This document shows, in pieces, positions 397 through 12,204 of a stretch of DNA of 64,000 nucleotides. Position 1 is the stretch's first letter; the number at the start of each line of letters is the position of its first letter. Both the position numbers and the translations under genes were made by a program. The notes under the pieces were generated by a model that was given only the letters and a program-made list of their open reading frames with translations, had not been told where the DNA came from and did not search any database. The stretch is taken from the NCBI RefSeq assembly GCF_014637725.1, contig NZ_BMFC01000006.1:1-64000 (forward strand), given 5' to 3'. This DNA is from Marivita lacus. GTDB taxonomy: Bacteria > Pseudomonadota > Alphaproteobacteria > Rhodobacterales > Rhodobacteraceae.

Positions 397-1275
397 TCAC
401 GTGGCAGCGATCCAAGCGCGCGCGATGTCCTCGCGTGTGGCGATCCAGATGCGCTCGCGCCGCGCCGCCAGATCGGCCAGCACCCCGTCGAATGCGCCGA
501 AGCGCCCCGGACGCCCGACGATACGCAGGTGAAAGCCGATATTCAGCATGCGCGCCTGCCCCCGTGCAGCTTCGGCCTCAAGCACATCCAGCGCGTCCGA
601 TACATAGTCGGTCATGTCGCGTGCCCGTACGAAACCGTTGGGATGAAAGAACTTCATGTCATTGCTGTCCAGCGCGTAGGGTACGACCAGAAGAGGGCCG
701 TCGCGATAGGGCAGGTCGTCGTCGAACCCGTTGGATGTATAAAGATATCCGCGTTCGGACAACAGCGCGCGGGTCCAGGGGCTTTCGGCGCCGCGACAGA
801 AAAAGCCAACGGGTCGCCGACCCACCGTGGTGGCGATGGCATCGGCAGCGCGGTCTAGGTCGACCCCTTCGGCCTCGGGCGTGTCGTAATCGGCATGGGG
901 CCGCCAGAGCCAGCCATGGCAGGCCACTTCATGCCCGTCATCGGCGAGCATGCGCAGCACAGGCGCCGAACGTTCGGCGGCGCGCCCACAGGCGAACAGC
1001 GTCGCCCGGATATCGTGCCGGCGCAGCGCATCGGCCATCCGCCAGGCCCCGGCCCGCGTGCCGTAGGCAAAGATCTGAGCCTGCCCTGGATCAGGCCGCC
1101 CCTCGGGCACGACCGAGATCACTTCGCCCATCCGCTCGCTCGTCGCGTCGCCGTCGATCACCTGCTGTTCGGCGCCTTCTTCGACATTGACCACCACGGA
1201 TACGGCAAGCCGCGCTCCGTTCGGCCAGGTGACATCGGGCCATTTGCCACCGTATCCGACCAGATCCCGTGTCAT
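397..1275 (-). CDS. PuuE-type polysaccharide-deacetylase-fold hydrolase, paralogue 1
   Basis: The 292-residue protein belongs to the PuuE (metal-independent allantoinase) branch of the NodB/polysaccharide deacetylase fold. Family blocks seen in order are a WPNGARLAV start, VVNVEEGAE, YGTRAGAWR, HEVACHGW, FFCRGAESPWTRAL, LYTSNGFDDDLPY, YALDSNDMKFF and GFHLRIVGRPGR. The start is the ATG at 1275, which overlaps the preceding gene's TGA as ATGA; upstream in-frame codons lie inside that gene. It is the last gene of an eight-gene operon. Compared with the PuuE-like paralogue at 3699-4610 it is shorter in the middle and lacks the RYGPSVNTR motif, so the substrate is probably not the same. Hydrolysis of an amide or cyclic amide is inferred. 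Confidence 0.75.
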   Translation of the reverse strand: MTRDLVGYGGKWPDVTWPNGARLAVSVVVNVEEGAEQQVIDGDATSERMGEVISVVPEGRPDPGQAQIFAYGTRAGAWRMADALRRHDIRATLFACGRAAERSAPVLRMLADDGHEVACHGWLWRPHADYDTPEAEGVDLDRAADAIATTVGRRPVGFFCRGAESPWTRALLSERGYLYTSNGFDDDLPYRDGPLLVVPYALDSNDMKFFHPNGFVRARDMTDYVSDALDVLEAEAARGQARMLNIGFHLRIVGRPGRFGAFDGVLADLAARRERIWIATREDIARAWIAAT

Positions 1276-2831
1276 GCGCCGAAACCGGGCGGAATGGCAC
1301 GCGGCTCCCATGCGGGAAGACCGACCGCCGCGCGCCAGTGGGTGGCAATCTGCGCCCGCGTCGCGAACCAGACATCGCCCCGTGACAGCGCATGGTCCAG
1401 AAACGCCTCAAGCCCGCCGATCCGGGCCGGGCGCCCGATCATCCGGGGATGCAGGCCCACCGATAGCATCCGCGATGCCTGAGCGGCTTCGTGATGCAGC
1501 CGGTCAAAGGCGTCGATGCAATAGCTCCAAAAATCGGCGCCGGAGACAAAACCGCCCCGGTTGAAGAACCGCATGTCGTTGGTGTCAAAGGCATAGGGCA
1601 GGACGACATGCGGCCCGGCACCGGTTTCGACCACATAGGGCACATCGTCGGTGTAGGCATTGCTGTCATACAGGAACCCGCCCTGTTCGATTAGCAGGTC
1701 GCGCGTGCGTTCAGATATCGCAGAACGCGTGTGCCTGCCCATGGGCTGGGTGCCTGCGGTCCGGGAAATTGCTGCGACGGTGCGGGCGATAGCGCTGCGC
1801 TCTTGGGCTTCGCTCATGTGGACGTGACGTTCCCACCGCCATCTATGGGCCGCAACCTCTTGGCCATCCGGGAAGGGCTCGGAGGCGATCCAAGGCGAGC
1901 GCTCCAGCGCACGGCCACACGCGTTGAGAGTGGCCGCCAGCCGTCGCGATCGCAGGGCCGCCCGGATCCGTGGCCAAGCAGCGCGGGGGCCATATTCGAA
2001 ATGGCTTTCCATGCAGAGATCGCACAGGCCGTCCACACGCTCGACCGCCTCGTAGATGCTCTCGTTGCTTTCGTCGCCATCGCCAAGGGACAGTTCCGCC
2101 CCTTCCTCGATATTGACGACAATCGATACGGCCAGACCAGCACCGCCTGGCCATCGGACATCCGGCGTTCCGTCACGATAGTCGACAAAATCGCGTTCGG
2201 TCATGCCAGGATACGCGCGCGCAACGTCCATGAAACCTGCGCAGGCATCCGCGTCCCAGCGGACCAGATCGTCAGCGCCACCGCGCATCAAGGCCGAACC
2301 GACAACGACGCCCTGTGTAGCATCCAGTGCCGTACCGAAATTTTCCGTTGTGACCCCGCCGCCCACAAGGATCAGCAGCCGAACACCCGCAGCACGCACC
2401 GCCTCTGTCCGCGCCAGGGTATCGTCAAGGCTGTTGCCCGTGATCACGAGACCGTCGGCCCCGGCTTTGTCGGCCCAGCCCGCGGCAACGGGCTGCGTCT
2501 CTCCCGAAAGGGGCACGCTGGTGCGATCGTGGACATCCGCCAGAATCGCGATGTCGGTCCTGCCGATCCGGGCACGGTGCGCCTCCGCCTGCGGGGCAAG
2601 CGCATGACGCGGCCCGAAAGCTGCCATCGTGGCGATCGTGTGGCTGGCCGCCGGTCGGTCGGTGCGCGTCTGGTCCTGCACCTTTACCCAGGGCATCCCT
2701 GCCGCGGCAAAGACGCGGGAATTGGCAATCGCATAATCCTCAAGCCATGAGAGCGAGCGTCCTTCTTCGGGTTGCGGCAGATGCAGGGCCGCGATTATCG
2801 CGGGGCCTTTGGCGAACAATGCGTGTGTCAT
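1272..2831 (-). CDS. BtpA-like TIM barrel fused to a PuuE-type hydrolase
   Basis: A 519-residue protein with two complete domains. Residues about 10-205 match the BtpA/SgcQ TIM-barrel family: AALHLP, NSRVFAAAGMPWVKVQDQT, IAILADVHDRTSVPL, GADGLVITG, LILVGGGVTTENF and GVVVGSALM. Residues about 210-505 are a PuuE-type deacetylase-fold domain with VVNIEEGAE, MESHFEYGPRA, GGFLYDSNAY, YAFDTNDMRFF and SVGLHPRMIGRPAR. The expected CHGWRW block is AHRWRW here. Met-210 starts a stretch resembling the normal N-terminus of PuuE proteins, so the fusion looks like two former genes that lost the stop between them. The start chosen (2831) follows the upstream stop by 16 bp with a GGAGA sequence; more upstream codons lie inside that gene. 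BtpA-family chemistry is poorly known. Confidence 0.75.
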   Translation of the reverse strand: MTHALFAKGPAIIAALHLPQPEEGRSLSWLEDYAIANSRVFAAAGMPWVKVQDQTRTDRPAASHTIATMAAFGPRHALAPQAEAHRARIGRTDIAILADVHDRTSVPLSGETQPVAAGWADKAGADGLVITGNSLDDTLARTEAVRAAGVRLLILVGGGVTTENFGTALDATQGVVVGSALMRGGADDLVRWDADACAGFMDVARAYPGMTERDFVDYRDGTPDVRWPGGAGLAVSIVVNIEEGAELSLGDGDESNESIYEAVERVDGLCDLCMESHFEYGPRAAWPRIRAALRSRRLAATLNACGRALERSPWIASEPFPDGQEVAAHRWRWERHVHMSEAQERSAIARTVAAISRTAGTQPMGRHTRSAISERTRDLLIEQGGFLYDSNAYTDDVPYVVETGAGPHVVLPYAFDTNDMRFFNRGGFVSGADFWSYCIDAFDRLHHEAAQASRMLSVGLHPRMIGRPARIGGLEAFLDHALSRGDVWFATRAQIATHWRAAVGLPAWEPRAIPPGFGA

Positions 2832-2847: not shown

Positions 2848-3702
2848 TCAGATGGGGGTAAGACGAGACACCCTGCTTGGATTGGCTTCCGCAAGGTACA
2901 GTGTGCCATCCGGCGTTCCGAAAATCCCGTGGGCTCCGTTCAACATCGGCCGAGCGCGCCCCAAGCGCGTTCCATCCTGTGACATGCGATGAAGGCTTGG
3001 CACTTCATCGCTGACGAAGACATCACCTGCGGCATTGCCCCAGATGCCCACGGGCCGACGGAAACCGGTCCACTCATCAAGGAACGTGCCCTCAGCGTCG
3101 AACACCTGGAGCCGGTGATTGCACCGATCCACAACCACGACCCGCCCATCCGGCAGACACCAAAGAGAATGCGGTTCACGGAACGCGCCGGGCCCGTCGC
3201 CGAACGTGCCCCAGGTGCCCAGATGTGTGCCATCGGCGGCAAATCGGTGGACATGCCACCCGGCATAGCCGTCGGACACGTAGATATCGCCGCCGGGGGC
3301 AATCGTGACATCGGTCGGGTGATTGAACGGCGCGCCCGGACCTCCGCGTGTGCCGATCCCGCCGATGCGCTGTCCATCGGCAGAAAAGATGATGATTTCA
3401 TGCATGTCGCGGTCAACGACGAATATCCGCCCGTCAGGCGCGGGCGTCAACAGATGCGCGTCCGCAATCTCGAGATCACCCCACGCCCCCAGAAAGTCGC
3501 CATCAGGGGAGAGCACGATCACGCACGGATTATCGGGGTCCACGTAAGGGTCGCTGCGCAGCAGCACGAGGATGCGCCCGTCAGGCGTTACAACAACATC
3601 CGACACCTTCCCGGCGTACTGTGGCCAGCTGCCAAAAGGGCGATCAATACGATAGCGCGTGTCGCCCAGGGCCACGACAACCTGGTGGCGTGATCCGCTC
3701 AT
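2848..3702 (-). CDS. NHL-repeat beta-propeller protein
   Basis: The 284-residue protein has repeated NHL-type blades, seen as VSDVVVTPDGRILVL, DAHLLTPAPDGRIFVVDR, FNHPTDVTIAPGGDIYVSDG, FREPHSLWCLPDGRVVVVDR and AHGIFGTPDGTLYLAE. This pattern is typical of six-bladed propellers related to peptidylglycine amidating lyases and SMP-30-like proteins. No signal peptide or membrane segment is visible, so it is probably cytoplasmic. Its ATG overlaps the stop of the PuuE-like gene as ATGA, which ties it translationally to that enzyme. A lactonase or lyase step in the same pathway is plausible, but catalytic residues cannot be assigned from the sequence alone. Confidence 0.75.
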   Translation of the reverse strand: MSGSRHQVVVALGDTRYRIDRPFGSWPQYAGKVSDVVVTPDGRILVLLRSDPYVDPDNPCVIVLSPDGDFLGAWGDLEIADAHLLTPAPDGRIFVVDRDMHEIIIFSADGQRIGGIGTRGGPGAPFNHPTDVTIAPGGDIYVSDGYAGWHVHRFAADGTHLGTWGTFGDGPGAFREPHSLWCLPDGRVVVVDRCNHRLQVFDAEGTFLDEWTGFRRPVGIWGNAAGDVFVSDEVPSLHRMSQDGTRLGRARPMLNGAHGIFGTPDGTLYLAEANPSRVSRLTPI

Positions 3703-4610
3703 GCGAGCGGGCCGGAATAGGGGTGCGTCTCGGTCCAGTGGCGCGCGATATCGATACGTCGCGTGATCCAGACGTCCTCGTGGCCCATGACGTAATCGAG
3801 AAACCGCTCCAGCCCTGCGGCCCGTGCGGGATGGCCGATCAACCTCATGTGCAGGCCCACCGACATCATCTTGGGCGCTGTTGCGCCCTCACGATAAAGC
3901 ATATCGAAGGCGTCCTTGTGCCATTCGAAGTAATCATTGGATGTCGCAAAAGACCCGCAAAATTTTGTGTCATTGTTCGTCAGCGAATAGGGCACTACGA
4001 GGTGCGCTTTCTGATCGACCTCTGTCCAATAGGGCAATTCGTCGTCGTAGGCATCGGAGTCGTACAGGAACCCTCCCTCTTCGACGACGAGTTTGCGCGT
4101 GTTGACGCTAGGGCCGTAGCGGCAATACCAGCCAAGGGGCCGTTCGCCTAAAGTCTCCTTCAACGAGGCGATTGCGCGCTGGATGTGATCCCGCTCCTCG
4201 GCTTCGCTCAGCTCGAAATGCTTGATCCAGCGCCAGCCGTGGCAGCAGCAATCGAAACCGCTTTCTCGAATGGTTTGCGCGGCTTCCCGGTTCCGCTCCA
4301 GCGCGAGCGCGCAGCCAAAGATCGTCATCGGAAGCCCACGGTTCTGAAACAGCCGCATCAACCGCCAGAACCCGACCCGGCTGCCATAGGCAAAGAGCCC
4401 TTCGCCTGCCAGATCGCGGCCATCGACCCCTTGGCCAAGCCCGTGAGCGTCGGTGAGCGCCACTTCGGTGAACCCTTCGCCGTCCTGCACGGAAGGCTCC
4501 GAGCCTTCTTCGTAATTCATCACGAAATTTATCGCGATGCGGGCGCCGTTTGGCCATTTGGGATCGGGCGGGTTTGCGCCGTAGCCGATTAGGTCGCGGG
4601 GATAGGTCAT
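3699..4610 (-). CDS. PuuE-like allantoinase family protein, paralogue 3
   Basis: The 303-residue length and the full set of family motifs make this the most canonical of three paralogues. It starts MTYPRDLIGYG and contains VMNYEEGSE, YGSRVGFWRL, CCCHGWRWIKHFE, WYCRYGPSVNTRKL, GGFLYDSDAY, HLVVPYSLTNNDTKF and MMSVGLHMRLIGHPAR. Characterised PuuE enzymes open the hydantoin ring of allantoin without a metal. The start at 4610 has GAGG about 9 nt upstream and lies 7 bp after the permease stop. Allantoin is one candidate substrate, but the two sister domains in the operon suggest another cyclic or acylated amine. No other purine catabolic gene is nearby. Confidence 0.75.
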   Translation of the reverse strand: MTYPRDLIGYGANPPDPKWPNGARIAINFVMNYEEGSEPSVQDGEGFTEVALTDAHGLGQGVDGRDLAGEGLFAYGSRVGFWRLMRLFQNRGLPMTIFGCALALERNREAAQTIRESGFDCCCHGWRWIKHFELSEAEERDHIQRAIASLKETLGERPLGWYCRYGPSVNTRKLVVEEGGFLYDSDAYDDELPYWTEVDQKAHLVVPYSLTNNDTKFCGSFATSNDYFEWHKDAFDMLYREGATAPKMMSVGLHMRLIGHPARAAGLERFLDYVMGHEDVWITRRIDIARHWTETHPYSGPLA

Positions 4611-4617
4611 TGGGGCC

Positions 4618-5439
4618 TCACATACTCATCCGGCGTGTCAGACCGGTCAAACGATCCATCACGACCATTGCAACTAGAACGGCGACGATGATGACACCGG
4701 AAATCGCGGCAATGCGGACATCAAGGGTGGTTTCCATCATGCCCCACATGCGGATCGGCAACATGTTGGTGCGTGCATTGGACAGGAAGAGCGACACGGG
4801 CACGTTGTCCATCGACGCCACAAAGGCCAGGAACGCACCTGCCACAATGCCCGGCGTGATGATCGGGAGAGTGATGCGCCGGAACGCATAAAGCCGCCCC
4901 GCCCCAAGGCTCGCCGAGCTTTCCAAAAGCGCCGGGTTGAACTGAGTAAGGCTGGCCAGCGTCGTGCGGAAGATGAATGGCGCGATCACTACGAGGTGCC
5001 CGGCAATCAGATGGTTGATCGAGGGTCGGAAGCCCAGGATCGAGAAGAACATCAACGCGGCCAGACCATAGGATAGTCCGGGCAGGATCAGCGGCGACAT
5101 GAAGCTGGCTTCGAGTGCGCGGGCGGATGCCCTGTTGCTGCGGGCCATGGCGAGGGCTGCAGCGGTCGCGACGACCACCGCGAGCGCCGTCGCGATTGCG
5201 GCCACCCAAACCGAATTGGCCAGCGCCGAGTGGATATGACCGGACCTGACCGGGTCGAACAGGTCACGATACCACTCGATAGAGAACCCGGGCGGTGGAA
5301 ACGTCAGCACCCGTGAGGACGTGAACGAGGTGAGCAGCACGATGATCACGGGTCCAACCAGGATCGCGACGCTGAGCGTCGCAAGCCCCCCCATGACGAC
5401 CGAGTACGACTGATCGGAAATCGTGTTGCGATGCGTCAT
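4618..5439 (-). CDS. ABC transporter permease, PotC-like
   Basis: The 273-residue inner-membrane protein has about six hydrophobic segments and the EAA-type cytoplasmic loop of binding-protein-dependent permeases, seen as ESSASLGAGRLYAFRRITLPIITPGI. It resembles PotC/YdcV permeases of spermidine/putrescine-type importers. The start at 5439 shares one base with the TGA of the PotB-like gene (TGATG); the open frame continues upstream only in the overlapping gene. It forms the membrane pore together with the PotB-like partner. The substrate is unknown. Confidence 0.85.
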   Translation of the reverse strand: MTHRNTISDQSYSVVMGGLATLSVAILVGPVIIVLLTSFTSSRVLTFPPPGFSIEWYRDLFDPVRSGHIHSALANSVWVAAIATALAVVVATAAALAMARSNRASARALEASFMSPLILPGLSYGLAALMFFSILGFRPSINHLIAGHLVVIAPFIFRTTLASLTQFNPALLESSASLGAGRLYAFRRITLPIITPGIVAGAFLAFVASMDNVPVSLFLSNARTNMLPIRMWGMMETTLDVRIAAISGVIIVAVLVAMVVMDRLTGLTRRMSM

Positions 5440-6290
5440 CAGGTTGTCCTCGCAAAGCGACCAAGGAGTGAAAAGAGCATCACGCCCGACAGGACCGCGA
5501 CCAGCAAGGTGACAGAGGCCACCGCGGCAAAAGGCCAGTCGAAGACGACCATGGATTGTTGCCAGATCAGTGACGGCAAATAGACAAGCCGCGCGCCGCC
5601 GATGACGGTCTGCGAAATGAAGGCGGTCGTGGCCGACGCAAAGACCAGTGTCGCACCCGCGATCCAGCCAGGCAGCGAGAGCGGCAGGATTACTCGGAAA
5701 AATGTGCGCCATTTGGACCCGCCGAGCGCACGGGAGGCATCCGACAAGCTCGGATTGATCTGCTGCATGACCGTGACGAGCGGCAGGAGCATCAGGGGCA
5801 TCTCGATCTGCGTCAGCGCAATCACAAGGCCCAATTCAGTTTGTAGCAGGTTCAGCGGCGCAGAGGTCAGTCCGAGTGCCAGCAGGGTCTGGTTGACGAC
5901 ACCCTCGCGCGCCAAGATCACTATCCAGGCGAAGGTGCGAATGACGACGGACGTCAGCAGCGGCAGAAGAATGATGAATATCAGGAGCTTGCGAACGAGT
6001 GGTCCGCTCGCGATGAACAGGAGCGCAATCGGGTATGACAGGGCCGACGTTGCCAGTACGGCGACCATACCGAGCCTGACGGTATCATAGACAACGCCTC
6101 GATAGAACGGATCGCCCCAGAATTTCACCCAGCTGTCCATGGAGAAGGATGCGAAGCGGTCATCCGCCGCGAAGGACATTGCCAGCAGGATGAGAAGGGG
6201 CGCGGCAAAGAACGCCAGATAGGTAAAACCGAGTGGCGCTGCGAGCCGCCAGTCCACACGTCCGGGTTCATTTTTTGCCGCGCCAGCCAT
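5439..6290 (-). CDS. ABC transporter permease, PotB-like
   Basis: The 283-residue protein is an inner-membrane permease with about six membrane segments and the EAA-type loop DASRALGGSKWRTFFRVILPLSLPG. It is the PotB-like half of the importer. The ATG at 6290 lies 1 bp beyond the binding-protein stop. A longer frame would need a TTG start inside that gene and adds no conserved residues. It should pair with the PotC-like permease and be energised by the ATPase at 7367-8503. Confidence 0.85.
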   Translation of the reverse strand: MAGAAKNEPGRVDWRLAAPLGFTYLAFFAAPLLILLAMSFAADDRFASFSMDSWVKFWGDPFYRGVVYDTVRLGMVAVLATSALSYPIALLFIASGPLVRKLLIFIILLPLLTSVVIRTFAWIVILAREGVVNQTLLALGLTSAPLNLLQTELGLVIALTQIEMPLMLLPLVTVMQQINPSLSDASRALGGSKWRTFFRVILPLSLPGWIAGATLVFASATTAFISQTVIGGARLVYLPSLIWQQSMVVFDWPFAAVASVTLLVAVLSGVMLFSLLGRFARTT

Positions 6291-6291
6291 A

Positions 6292-7323
6292 TTACTTGGT
6301 GATCTCTTTGTTGAAGCGCTCAATCCAAGCCGCGCGCTGCGGATTGATCACGTTCCAGTCATGGACAACCATGTCAGCCAGATCATCGATCGAGTCGATG
6401 TAGAGGGTATCGACCAGCTCGACCTGCTTGTTCACCGGGATCATGTTGTAGGGGGGCATCATCAGTTGCGATTGAGCCGCGGCCGAGATCGCGGTGTCGA
6501 TGTACTGGTGGGCGGCCTCCACGTTCTCGGAACCCTTTACGATGTGAAGGGAGGTCGAGAAGGTGATTGCACCGGTTTCCGGTGCCATGAACTCGATGTC
6601 CACGCCTTGCTTCTTCAGCGTCGCGACATTGTTGGTGTTCGTGTACATCAAGTCGATCTGACCCTGTTGGAACAGACCCGGCAAGCCTGCGGGCCCCGTG
6701 ACTGCAGCCACTTTGGGCAGCGCCTCCTGGAGCTTTGCGAAGATCGGCTCCATGTCCGTGTCCGATCCACCGAACACCTTTGCCATTTCGATCAGGGAGA
6801 CGGTGCCGAAAGTGGTCTGGAAGCCGGTCAGGCCAAGCCGCTCCACGTAGGGAGATTCGAACAATTGCTCCCAGCGGGTCGGGGGTTCTGGGAATGCGGT
6901 CGGGTTATAGCACAGGCCAACGACCTGCACGTTCACGGTAGCGGCGTCTGCGGAAATCATGCCATCAGGTAAGTTTCCTGCGTTCGACAGCATGGAGGCG
7001 TCGATGGGATCGAACAGATCGGCCTCGCGCGCCGCAGCCGTGGGGCCAGGGTCCAGAACGAAACAGTCGAACGGAGCAATCCCGCGACCGGCGCGTGCCT
7101 TGGTCACCTGATCAACGGCCCAGAGCGGATCGAAGTCCACATCGACACCGTAGTTTTCAGCAAGCAGGGGCGCGACGACTGAGCGATAGGCTTCATCCCA
7201 AGTGCCGGGATAGATGGCCGCAGCCAGAGAACCGGACGCCCTGGCCATTGAGGCCGGAAGGGCAGATGCTGCGCCGAGTGCGGCAGCACCTTGCAGGAGT
7301 TTACGACGGGAGATCTCAGGCAT
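6292..7323 (-). CDS. Periplasmic binding protein of PotD-like ABC importer
   Basis: The 343-residue protein begins MPEISRRKLLQG, a twin-arginine signal, followed by an alanine-rich hydrophobic stretch and a probable cleavage after SMARA. The mature part has the features of family 1/8 extracellular solute-binding proteins of the PotD/AfuA type, such as YPGTWDEAYRSVVAPLL and PFDCFVLDPGPT. Start 7323 is preceded by AAGGAAAAG at good spacing; the extra 27 codons upstream lack a ribosome site. Export by Tat suggests folding before secretion. It captures the operon's unknown substrate, possibly a polyamine, amide or chelate. Confidence 0.85.
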   Translation of the reverse strand: MPEISRRKLLQGAAALGAASALPASMARASGSLAAAIYPGTWDEAYRSVVAPLLAENYGVDVDFDPLWAVDQVTKARAGRGIAPFDCFVLDPGPTAAAREADLFDPIDASMLSNAGNLPDGMISADAATVNVQVVGLCYNPTAFPEPPTRWEQLFESPYVERLGLTGFQTTFGTVSLIEMAKVFGGSDTDMEPIFAKLQEALPKVAAVTGPAGLPGLFQQGQIDLMYTNTNNVATLKKQGVDIEFMAPETGAITFSTSLHIVKGSENVEAAHQYIDTAISAAAQSQLMMPPYNMIPVNKQVELVDTLYIDSIDDLADMVVHDWNVINPQRAAWIERFNKEITK

Positions 7324-7366
7324 GGTCTTTTCCTTGTTGATTTTTTTAGGTTGAATTTTGGCAGGT

Positions 7367-8503
7367 TCAGCCTGCCGACTTTGGAAACAGGATTGGTGCG
7401 GCATTTTCGGTCAGCGCGCAGTGGGTCGGGCCAAGGGGCGGTGCGGCCTCCCCTACGCGGCGCGGCGCGGCAACTTTGATCGTAGCGCCCTTTGGCGTTT
7501 CAACATCGTGGATTAGTGTGCCTCCCAAAGGCAGGCTCAGCGTACGCTCTACCGCAAACGCGCCGTCATACGGCTGATCCACCAAGACCAATTGCTCGGG
7601 CCGCGCGGTCACCAGGACCGCATCTCCGGTGGAGAAGGTTTTCGAGGTTGCGATATGCCAGATCGCGCCATTGTCGAGACGGATGACATAGCGATCCGCC
7701 TCACGGCCGAGCACTTCACCCTCAAAACGGTTGGAAGATCCTATAAAATCGTTGACGAACAGCGTCTCGGGCTGGTCGTAGATTTCGACCGGGGTGCCCA
7801 ATTGCTCGATCCTGCCCTTGCGCATGACGGCGATGCGGTCCGCAATCGCCATTGCCTCTTCCTGATCATGGGTCACAAGGATGGCCGTCAAGGCAAACTG
7901 CCTCTGCAGCCGCTTAATCTCGATTTGCATATCGAGACGGAGATTCTTGTCAAGAGCGGCAAAGGGTTCATCCAGCAAAAGAATGCGGGGCTGTACCGCG
8001 AGAGCACGCGCAAGCGCGACCCGCTGCTGCTGCCCGCCTGAAAGCTGCCCGGGCTTGCGATCCCCGAAGTCCTCCATCCGCACGGTCTTGAGCATTTTCT
8101 CGACGCGGAACCGCTGGTCCGATCTTGAATCGCCACGCGCATCGAGCCCGTAGGCGATGTTGTCGGCAACGGTCATATGAGGAAACAGCGCGTAGTTTTG
8201 AAAGACGATCCCCACCTCGCGGCGGTTCGGGGGCAGAGAGTCAACGAAGCGTTCGCCAATCTTGACGTGACCCTGCGATTGGTTGAGGAACCCAGCGACG
8301 ATCCGAAGCAAGGTCGACTTGCCACAGCCTGATGGCCCCAGCAGCGCCACCAATTCACCGCCCGCGACTTGCAGTGTGACGTCATCAACGGCCAGCCCGT
8401 CTCCGTAACTGTGCGTGATGCCATCCAGCGTGAGTGGTTCACCGACAGAACGCCGTTGTATGGCCGCGTTCGCACCTTGGTCTACTGGCAGCGGCTGGTT
8501 CAC
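7367..8503 (-). CDS. ABC transporter ATPase, PotA-like
   Basis: The 378-residue protein carries Walker A GPSGCGKST at about 56-64, the Q-loop in VFQNYALFPHMTV, signature LSGGQQQR at about 154-161, Walker B ILLLDEP at about 174-180, an H-loop in VTHDQEEAM and a C-terminal TOBE-type domain. The start is GTG at 8503 with GGAAAAG just upstream at short spacing. It is the first gene of the eight-gene minus-strand operon. Its promoter must lie in 8504-8797, next to the IS110 remnant. Confidence 0.87.
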   Translation of the reverse strand: MNQPLPVDQGANAAIQRRSVGEPLTLDGITHSYGDGLAVDDVTLQVAGGELVALLGPSGCGKSTLLRIVAGFLNQSQGHVKIGERFVDSLPPNRREVGIVFQNYALFPHMTVADNIAYGLDARGDSRSDQRFRVEKMLKTVRMEDFGDRKPGQLSGGQQQRVALARALAVQPRILLLDEPFAALDKNLRLDMQIEIKRLQRQFALTAILVTHDQEEAMAIADRIAVMRKGRIEQLGTPVEIYDQPETLFVNDFIGSSNRFEGEVLGREADRYVIRLDNGAIWHIATSKTFSTGDAVLVTARPEQLVLVDQPYDGAFAVERTLSLPLGGTLIHDVETPKGATIKVAAPRRVGEAAPPLGPTHCALTENAAPILFPKSAG

Positions 8504-8797: not shown

Positions 8798-9163
8798 TTG
8801 AACCGTTGCTCCTGTGACGGGGCTCTGTTGCGCAAAGAAGACGGGCCGCATCCCCGCACCCTTGTCGCATGGGTCGGATTGGTTCCGAGACAGACTACGA
8901 CCGGCGGAAAACCAAGGCTTGGCGGGATCACGCGACGCGGAAACAAATATCTACGCAAAAATCTGGTTCATGGCGCGCGGGCGCCGCTTCCGGTCCTGGC
9001 GCGCAGCCAGACAAATCTCGGTCGATTGCTCTCGGGTCTTTTGACGCGGGCGAATCCGAACATGGTCGTGGTCGCGCTGGCCAACAGACTGGCGTGGATC
9101 GCTTGGGCAGCTCTGACTCAGAACCGGTTATTTCAACCCGAGGTACCGGCACGAAGGAGCTAA
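8798..9163 (+). pseudogene. IS110-family transposase, C-terminal remnant
   Basis: The open frame contains LVAWVGLVPRQTTTGGKPRL, then GITRRGNKYLRKNLVHGARA and a VVALANRLAWIAWAAL tail. These are the hallmark C-terminal (transposase_20-like) blocks of IS110/IS116/IS902 elements. The N-terminal RuvC-like DEDD domain, about 200 residues, is absent, so the gene is truncated. The bases from 9164 to about 9396 carry no recognisable gene and probably include the 3' flank of the same element. The remnant sits between the ABC operon promoter and a patch of broken genes. Confidence 0.8.
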
Positions 9164-10410: not shown

Positions 10411-10665
10411 ATGTCCCGCACAACGACCATGACCGTCCGCGTCAGCGGTACCCTGAGCGAGTTCGTTGCGACCAATGTCGGCGAGGGCGGCGCTTACGAG
10501 AACGTCAGCGAATACATCCGCGATCTCATCCGCCGCGACAAGGAGCGTGCCGAGCGCGAAGCCTTCGATCGCTTGAAGGCCGAATTGAACCGTGCCTTCG
10601 CCGCGCCCGAGGAAAGCTACAAGCCCCTGACTGCCGTTGAGGTGATCTCCCGGAACCGGGCCTGA
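10411..10665 (+). CDS. ParD/CopG-type antitoxin
   Basis: The 84-residue protein starts MSRTTTMTVRVSGTLSEFV and contains YENVSEYIRDLIRRDKERAE. This is the ribbon-helix-helix DNA-binding fold plus the toxin-binding helix of ParD-like antitoxins. AGAGGAG precedes the ATG. The toxin gene begins 4 bp after its stop. In such modules the antitoxin represses its own promoter, alone and with the toxin. It lies in a patch of IS remnants and broken genes, a common location for such modules. Confidence 0.85.
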   Translation: MSRTTTMTVRVSGTLSEFVATNVGEGGAYENVSEYIRDLIRRDKERAEREAFDRLKAELNRAFAAPEESYKPLTAVEVISRNRA

Positions 10666-10669
10666 GCCC

Positions 10670-10978
10670 ATGGCAATCCGGGTCCAGGAGGCGGCCTCGG
10701 TCCGCCTCGACGAGATCTACCGCTACACCCGCGACCGGTGGGGCGAGGCGCGGGCCGAAACCTACGTCGTCGGCCTCTTCGCCGCGTTCGAGCGCATTGA
10801 AACACGCGGCGTGATGTCGAGGCCCGTGCCGGCCGAGTTCGGGGTGGACGGGTACTTCTTCCGCGACGAGCGCCATTTCGTGTACTGGAAACGCCTTGCC
10901 GATGGCGACATCGGGATCGTCACCATCCTGCACGAGCGGATGCATCAGATCGAGCGCTACAAGGACGACTTTGAATAA
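10670..10978 (+). CDS. ParE/RelE-family toxin
   Basis: The 102-residue protein begins MAIRVQEAASVRLDEIYRYT and continues RDRWGEARAETYVVGLFAAF, then FFRDERHFVYWKR and ILHERMHQIERY. This is the compact RelE/ParE fold, with the first helix pair and C-terminal basic strand intact. Typical ParE members poison DNA gyrase while RelE members cut mRNA; ParD partnership favours the ParE type. The gene is full length and appears functional. Confidence 0.85.
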   Translation: MAIRVQEAASVRLDEIYRYTRDRWGEARAETYVVGLFAAFERIETRGVMSRPVPAEFGVDGYFFRDERHFVYWKRLADGDIGIVTILHERMHQIERYKDDFE

Positions 10979-11359: not shown

Positions 11360-11386
11360 CAGGATCGGACCCTGGTGGTTTGGTGC

Positions 11387-11418
11387 GTCTCTCCGTCCTC
11401 GCACAGGATAGGAGAGAC
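11387..11418 (+). promoter_or_regulatory. Hairpin sequestering the thiM Shine-Dalgarno sequence
   Basis: GTCTCTCC at 11387-11394 is the exact complement of GGAGAGAC at 11411-11418, and an inner TCCT/AGGA pair extends the stem. The right arm contains the GGAG ribosome-binding site of thiM (ATG 11422). The arrangement fits an expression platform that blocks translation when TPP is bound. No U-tract follows, so termination is unlikely. Confidence 0.75.
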
Positions 11419-11421
11419 CGA

Positions 11422-12204
11422 ATGACGCCCAAAGCTGCTCTTGAGGCGCTGCGCGCGCAGGCACCGCTGGTGCATTGCATCACGAATTACGTTGCCATGA
11501 ACATCGCGGCCAATGTGACCCTCGCGGCGGGTGCCTCGCCCGCGATGATCCACGCTCCGCAGGAGGTTGCCGATTTCACCCCGGTCGCCGGGGCGTTGAC
11601 GATCAATATCGGAACCCTGTCAGAGCCATGGGTCGAGGGCATGCGCCTTGCCGCCAAGACCGCGACGGCACAGTCGGTGCCTTGGGTGCTGGACCCGGTG
11701 GCGCATTTTGCGACCCCGTACCGTGCGAAAGCAGCCCAGGATCTTCTGGCGCTGAAGCCGACCATCCTGCGCGGTAATGCCTCCGAGATCATTGCACTGG
11801 CCGGTGGCGGAGGCGCGGGAAAGGGGGCGGATAGCGGGGACAGCGTGACCGACGCCCAGTCCGCCGCAATCGACCTTGCAAAACGCATGGGATGTGTCGT
11901 TGCGGTCACGGGCGAAACGGATTTCGTCACCGACGGGACGCGGCATGTCACCATTCATGGCGGGGCTGCGATCATGCCGAAGGTCACGGCGCTGGGCTGT
12001 TCGTTGACGGCCCTTGTGGGCGCTTATGCGGCTGTTGCCCCGGCGCTGGATGCCACTGTTGCGGCCTTGCTGCACTTTGCGGTCGCCGGGGAACGGGCGG
12101 CACTCATGTCTGACGGGCCGGGGAGCTTTTCTGTCCGGTTCCTCGATCAGCTGTACCTGGTCCAGCCGGACGATCTGGGTGAGAGCCATCTGACATGGCA
12201 GTGA
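11422..12204 (+). CDS. thiM: Hydroxyethylthiazole kinase
   Basis: The 260-residue enzyme phosphorylates 4-methyl-5-(2-hydroxyethyl)thiazole, recycling the thiazole half of thiamine. Family blocks are PLVHCITNYVAMNIAANVTL, GASPAMIHAPQEV, LDPVAHFATPYR, ILRGNASEI, VAVTGETDFVTDG and the nucleotide-binding ALGCSLTALVGAY with its conserved cysteine. The ATG at 11422 has GGAG upstream within the regulatory hairpin; a longer open frame lies in the leader and is rejected. The stop overlaps thiE by 10 bp. The order thiM-thiE-thiD gives all steps from salvaged thiazole and pyrimidine to thiamine phosphate. Confidence 0.93.
   Translation: MTPKAALEALRAQAPLVHCITNYVAMNIAANVTLAAGASPAMIHAPQEVADFTPVAGALTINIGTLSEPWVEGMRLAAKTATAQSVPWVLDPVAHFATPYRAKAAQDLLALKPTILRGNASEIIALAGGGGAGKGADSGDSVTDAQSAAIDLAKRMGCVVAVTGETDFVTDGTRHVTIHGGAAIMPKVTALGCSLTALVGAYAAVAPALDATVAALLHFAVAGERAALMSDGPGSFSVRFLDQLYLVQPDDLGESHLTWQ

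Follow-up and report, generated by a model that had tools for sequence, protein, structure and literature searches.

The window, a stretch of 64,000 nucleotides from Marivita lacus, carries on its minus strand a single open reading frame of 519 codons plus stop (1272-2831), in which a btpA-like sequence continues without interruption into a puuE-like gene. This fused frame is real in the assembly and is best read as gene decay, not as a new two-part enzyme; it probably arose not long ago by accident, when a decaying btpA came to be read through into puuE at an ATGA overlap. An earlier note on this DNA, which gave no strand, had described a 519-residue protein without a frame break, and the frame was indeed found to be open throughout. 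The view that it encodes a working bifunctional BtpA-PuuE fusion was not supported, since the barrel is incomplete and no other fused locus was seen among those examined. Coordinates of the features are collected in Table 1.

Table 1 Features of the fused frame and its neighbours (positions in the window).
Feature	Positions	Strand	Remarks
PuuE-C	397..1275	-	Second PuuE paralog; background omega
Fused open reading frame	1272..2831	-	519 aa
PuuE-like part (PuuE-B)	1275..2204	-	Residues 210-519; W366R, G330R, H324Q and P453S at near-invariant positions
Frame-change region	2205..2222	-	Net +1, just upstream of Met-210; ATGA kept, TGA out of the btpA frame
BtpA-like remnant	2205..2831	-	Residues 1-209; lacks 50 internal residues; two further 2-residue gaps
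Scar of the 150-nt in-frame gap	2615..2616	-	Between residues 72 and 73
NHL-repeat protein	2848..3702	-	Not found in 25 btpA-adjacent loci
PuuE-A	3699..4610	-	Highest of the three scores against the PuuE model (399.2 bits; cut-off 424.6)
Polyamine/aminoethylphosphonate-type ABC transporter	4621..8503	-	Genes for two permeases, a binding protein and an ATPase, with assumed start codons

Profile matches bore out both domain identities proposed in the earlier note. The Pfam model PF03437 (BtpA) matched residues 84-186 above its gathering cut-off (38.3 bits, cut-off 30), Polysacc_deac_1 matched residues 277-364 (34.6 bits, cut-off 23.1), and the NCBIfam model TIGR03212 (PuuE) matched residues 212-501 with 277.6 bits. 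The last match covers profile positions 2-293 of 297, so that the PuuE homology of the second half is full-length, and the proposed beginning of the second domain at Met-210 coincides with the puuE start site in relatives. By sequence, the closest solved structures are 1z7a and 3cl6, both Pseudomonas PuuE allantoinase, the likeness again being near whole-length. The TIGR03212 equivalog cut-off of 424.6 bits was not reached by the fusion, and it was also missed by the intact PuuE-B (291.9) and PuuE-C (245.1) of the relative L016. As intact proteins score below the cut-off too, PuuE-B is, judging from these scores, a member of a paralog group apart from allantoinase proper.

The description of the frame as two complete domains did not hold for its BtpA part. 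PF03437 aligned only over profile positions 132-235 of 254 (104 positions, under half of the model), whereas the BtpA of L016 spans positions 4-252 (249 positions, 94.4 bits); a BtpA match in residues 10-205, which the earlier note had expected, was thus obtained above cut-off but confined to residues 84-186. The cut-off of TIGR00259 (BtpA/SgcQ; 153.4) was reached by neither the window (34.8) nor L016 (92.5). A subfamily profile built from 17 BtpA relatives (A1) split on the window into model positions 1-77 and 123-262, its alignment spanning residues 1-205 except for the gap. Alignments with relatives placed the absence of 50 residues after residue 72, and at the DNA level, in comparison with 11 relatives, this corresponds to an in-frame gap of 150 nt accompanied by two 6-nt gaps. 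The absent stretch equals residues 75-124 of L016 BtpA, which contain strands 86-90 and 110-115 (barrel strands 3 and 4), the helix between them and part of the preceding helix. AlphaFold predicted eight strands for the intact L016 protein (pLDDT 87.7) and, by the same procedure, six for the window part (pLDDT 77.3), with ten-residue pLDDT means of 43-60 around the scar. By profile coverage, the 50-residue gap and six strands against eight, the window part is not a complete (beta/alpha)8 BtpA domain.

A fold search was expected to expose the broken barrel and did not do so. With Foldseek, intact L016 BtpA resembled, at the level of fold only, the phosphosugar barrels KGPDC, ribulose-phosphate epimerase, TrpA and phosphoribosylanthranilate isomerase (TM 0.51-0.62 on the query), and the shortened part matched KDPGal aldolase about as well by TM-score (E 2.1e-7, probability 1.00, TM 0.59; lower-ranked matches TM 0.36-0.57), so that fold similarity does not decide whether the barrel is broken. 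As to how the deletion came about, the motif GGGC, a microhomology candidate, lies at its left edge and was seen by eye in 6 of 11 aligned relatives; it is absent in L019, the closest by BtpA part (69%), and is only suggestive.

To place the fused frame among its relatives, 84,980 species genomes were scanned with a sequence pattern; 442 candidates were confirmed and the best 80 of them analyzed. At E <= 1e-8, 25 of the 80 loci have btpA beside puuE in the same orientation and three have it on the other strand, while no btpA was found in the DNA examined around the remaining 52, some loci being truncated by contig ends. In the three opposite-strand loci (L067, L077, L078) the pairing with puuE-B is kept without operon overlap. 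None of the 25 adjacent loci has the two genes fused. At all 25 measured junctions (24 of the adjacent loci, L027 being left out, plus L003) btpA and puuE are separate and in different frames, overlapping by exactly 4 nt in 21; L017 and L032 overlap by 10 and 13 nt, and in L042 and L043 the two genes stand 7 nt apart. In L027, read separately, the genes are likewise separate with an ATGA overlap. The relatives' btpA is complete (254-274 aa) except in L025 and L027. An alignment of the whole fusion with single genes (A2) was mis-aligned and set aside.

The search for other BtpA-PuuE fusions, suggested in the earlier note, turned up none among the loci listed, and rarer ones may exist elsewhere. 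With the N-terminal 209 residues as query, 11 of 394 family genomes matched at 1e-5, own genome included. The PuuE half was matched in 17 of 17 genomes of the genus, and among the matches listed for the genus outside the own genome none reaches the first 188 residues. The A1 profile found 24 of 390 order genomes and 5 of 385 class genomes at 1e-20, again including the own genome. Long frames around BtpA matches (up to 638 aa), considered as further fusions, proved to be upstream extensions. Four of 32 BtpA loci read (L104-L107) have PuuE nearby, in a frame different from that of BtpA, and none of the four is fused; the remaining 28 had no PuuE match in the DNA read. The BtpA proteins of L104, L105, L106 and L107 are, by eye, the same as those of L022, L031, L003 and L038. 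Among plasmids, 490 records matched and none covered 80% of the query in one place. A functional fusion architecture does not recur in the other genomes examined.

Comparison with the relatives also located the probable origin of the read-through. From the conserved FMD codons to the puuE ATG, the window has 30 nt by eye, compared with 23 in L019 and L022 and 26 in L031. This net +1 change before the overlap sets the btpA stop out of frame, so that translation would enter puuE-B. The earlier proposal, loss of a stop codon where genes overlap by ATGA, is therefore right in outline, the alignment with 11 relatives indicating that the loss came through a frame change near the stop. Of the ATGA overlaps said to link the neighbouring genes, those between the fusion and PuuE-C and between PuuE-A and the NHL-repeat gene are present (4 nt each), but the NHL-repeat gene and the fusion lie 16 nt apart.

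In-frame loss within btpA is not confined to the window. Both L025 (6001-6525) and L027 (6016-6165), which are metagenome-assembled, carry in-frame internal btpA deletions that leave 174 and 49 aa, with the start, the stop and the ATGA overlap with puuE kept. In these three remnants (n=3, window included) the start may have been retained to drive puuE translation.

Substitutions were also observed in the PuuE part. Relative to the best 80 of the 442 relatives, 6 of 133 near-invariant PuuE positions are altered in the window: G217D, G285A, H324Q, G330R, W366R and P453S. As this number is also reached in seven of the 80 relatives, the count itself is unremarkable; the kind of change is remarkable because H324, G330 and W366 are retained even in Pseudomonas PuuE (both 1z7a and 3cl6). 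Among the 80 relatives, W366 is conserved in all, H324 in 79 and G330 in 78. The PuuE segments HGxRW and GW(Y/H)T, named from the present alignments, are broken by G330R and W366R, respectively. With a smaller relative set, from which L083 (243 aa) was left out of the PuuE count and L025 out of the BtpA count, the window differs at 9 of 146 near-invariant positions, second to L077 (11 of 146, milder). In the metagenome-assembled L083 (6774-7505), the puuE-B frame stops early and the match continues in the same frame.

Rate tests on the window branch pointed weakly to mild relaxation at most for puuE-B and btpA. Omega was 0.106 against a background of 0.066 for puuE-B (2dlnL 3.98) and 0.095 against 0.056 for btpA (2dlnL 1.72), and remained at background level for PuuE-C (0.056 against 0.055, 174 codons), while the control tip L023 gave higher values, 0.142 for puuE-B and 0.173 for btpA (2dlnL 8.08 and 8.66). 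These values come from a two-ratio model run with a custom script in which all branch lengths except the tested one were fixed, with synonymous change near saturation. For these tests 18 btpA, 19 puuB and 19 puuC relatives were aligned and every column with a gap was removed, leaving 200, 296 and 174 codons, respectively; ten control tips of the 18-19 per gene were used, L028 (puuC) and L020 and L021 (btpA) being saturated and uninterpretable.

The genomic setting differs from that in the relatives, which include Rhodobacteraceae, Roseobacter, Roseibacterium, Aureimonas, Skermanella, Rubrivivax and others. There (e.g. L016, L019, L022) the shared order is btpA, puuE-B, puuE-C, with ATGA overlaps in most; the genes are separate and, unlike in the window, usually accompanied by genes for SIS, PfkB, racemase and amidohydrolase. 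Gene names being taken from Pfam and NCBIfam, the 25 btpA-adjacent loci hold SIS in 22, PfkB in 24, an Asp/Glu/hydantoin racemase in 21, an amidohydrolase in 22 and a DeoR-type regulator in 10; the corresponding numbers for the other 55 loci, which include the three with btpA on the opposite strand, are 6, 6, 27, 18 and 5. These counts refer to the best 80 of 442 relatives at E <= 1e-20 and to the DNA examined around each locus, PuuE being left out as its queries cross-match paralogs. ABC transporter genes are also present in the relatives' loci. Compared with its counterpart, the gene after puuE-B, in 19 relatives, the window's PuuE-C shows 66-81% identity.

In the own genome, no second BtpA match was found elsewhere, and the best SIS and PfkB matches are only 28% and 30% identical, compared with 75-86% (SIS) and 62-72% (PfkB) for the same queries in closer relatives (L016-L031) and 40-48% and 34-44% in more distant ones. 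BtpA's pathway partners SIS and PfkB thus appear to be missing from this genome. Because the window begins at a contig end, the racemase and amidohydrolase genes could lie beyond it. A second PuuE-like cluster, without a BtpA match, was observed at about 70-80 kb of another contig of the genome (C3); its PuuE is 58% identical to the second half of the fusion, its amidohydrolase 51% identical to that of L016, and it holds two racemases (34% and 33%). Within the window, a C-terminal fragment of an IS110-family transposase (8798-9163, profile 249-342 of 343) lies beside the ABC transporter genes. It is followed by a small gene pair (10411-10978), the second a ParE-type toxin homolog (PF05016) and the first without a Pfam match and antitoxin-like by position only, and by a hydroxyethylthiazole kinase gene (11380-12204, PF02110).

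In the read-through that we consider probable, btpA would have dropped 150 nt in frame, and the net +1 change a few codons before the overlap would have carried translation on into puuE-B. The BtpA part would be unable to form the barrel and would be inactive because strands 3 and 4 are gone. The disappearance of the partners from the genome would have removed the need for BtpA; with these sugar-handling proteins gone, its loss would be expected. PuuE-B would now be produced mainly or only as a C-terminal extension and, because of W366R and G330R, would be inactive or impaired, while the frames of the ABC transporter, PuuE-A and PuuE-C appear intact. The decay, if decay it is, is recent. Several observations weigh against this reading: the frame has no interruption and most of its sequence is conserved, omega on the window branch is raised only mildly and is exceeded, with better support, by the control tip L023, the number of changed near-invariant PuuE positions is equalled in some relatives, Foldseek gives no sign of a broken barrel, and an error in sequencing could account for the frame change.

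In an unlikely alternative, PuuE-B has kept its hydrolase activity, and the shortened BtpA is no more than a passive extension at its N-terminus that now supplies the start codon for translation. Purifying selection is indeed still seen in its omega, 127 of the 133 near-invariant positions are retained (against the best 80 of 442 relatives), L025 and L027 retain puuE behind their in-frame btpA remnants and, as a weak point, no AGG occurs within 20 bases before Met-210, a motif present by eye in about half of 11 relatives. However, W366R and G330R add charges at positions retained in Pseudomonas PuuE, and the enzyme would have to carry a foreign N-terminus of 209 residues on a relative of PuuE allantoinase, for which PMC3084791 describes a tetrameric arrangement like that of HpPgdA. 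It also seems quite improbable that the frame change stems from faulty sequencing or assembly and that btpA, with its 50-residue deletion, and puuE-B are separate as in the relatives. A base-calling error leaves the 150-nt gap unexplained. In favour of an error, the change adjoins a tract of alternating G and C (GCGCGCGCG), the search covered a single genome of this species, and the genes are separate at every measured junction in the relatives; such an error would be compatible with a btpA in decay. The functional bifunctional enzyme favoured in the earlier note is very improbable: the open frame carries both domains, btpA and puuE are conserved neighbours and the shortened part still resembles aldolase barrels by fold, but barrel strands are missing, the PuuE changes are radical, pathway partners are missing and no second instance was found among the loci examined.

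A description of a BtpA-PuuE pairing was not found in the open-access literature, most subscription journals being outside its scope, nor did the open-access literature yield anything on BtpA with hydantoin, on 'BtpA family' or on PF03437, or anything but an unrelated paper on the operon. Open-access hits for BtpA or SgcQ mostly concern an unrelated Brucella protein or chemicals; the BtpA of PMC13118557, the one paper found for BtpA together with allantoinase, is likewise the Brucella protein. The suggestion that BtpA acts near an amide- or hydantoin-hydrolysing step is upheld by the conserved operon of the relatives but draws nothing from the fusion itself: as btpA stands beside puuE in 25 of 80 loci, gene order speaks for a role of BtpA close to the hydrolysis of ureides. 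Rather doubtfully, one may picture in the relatives an undescribed pathway in which a cyclic ureide or hydantoin, taken up as its N-glycoside, would be phosphorylated by PfkB; BtpA, as a barrel of the phosphosugar type, would then cleave or rearrange the product together with SIS, and the PuuE pair, racemase and amidohydrolase would open the ring set free; in the window the sugar half would be being lost, with BtpA left only as a leader for PuuE-B translation. The fusion is no argument that both proteins form one enzyme, and what matters is the conserved set of genes, which offers a class of substrates to test for the poorly understood BtpA family.
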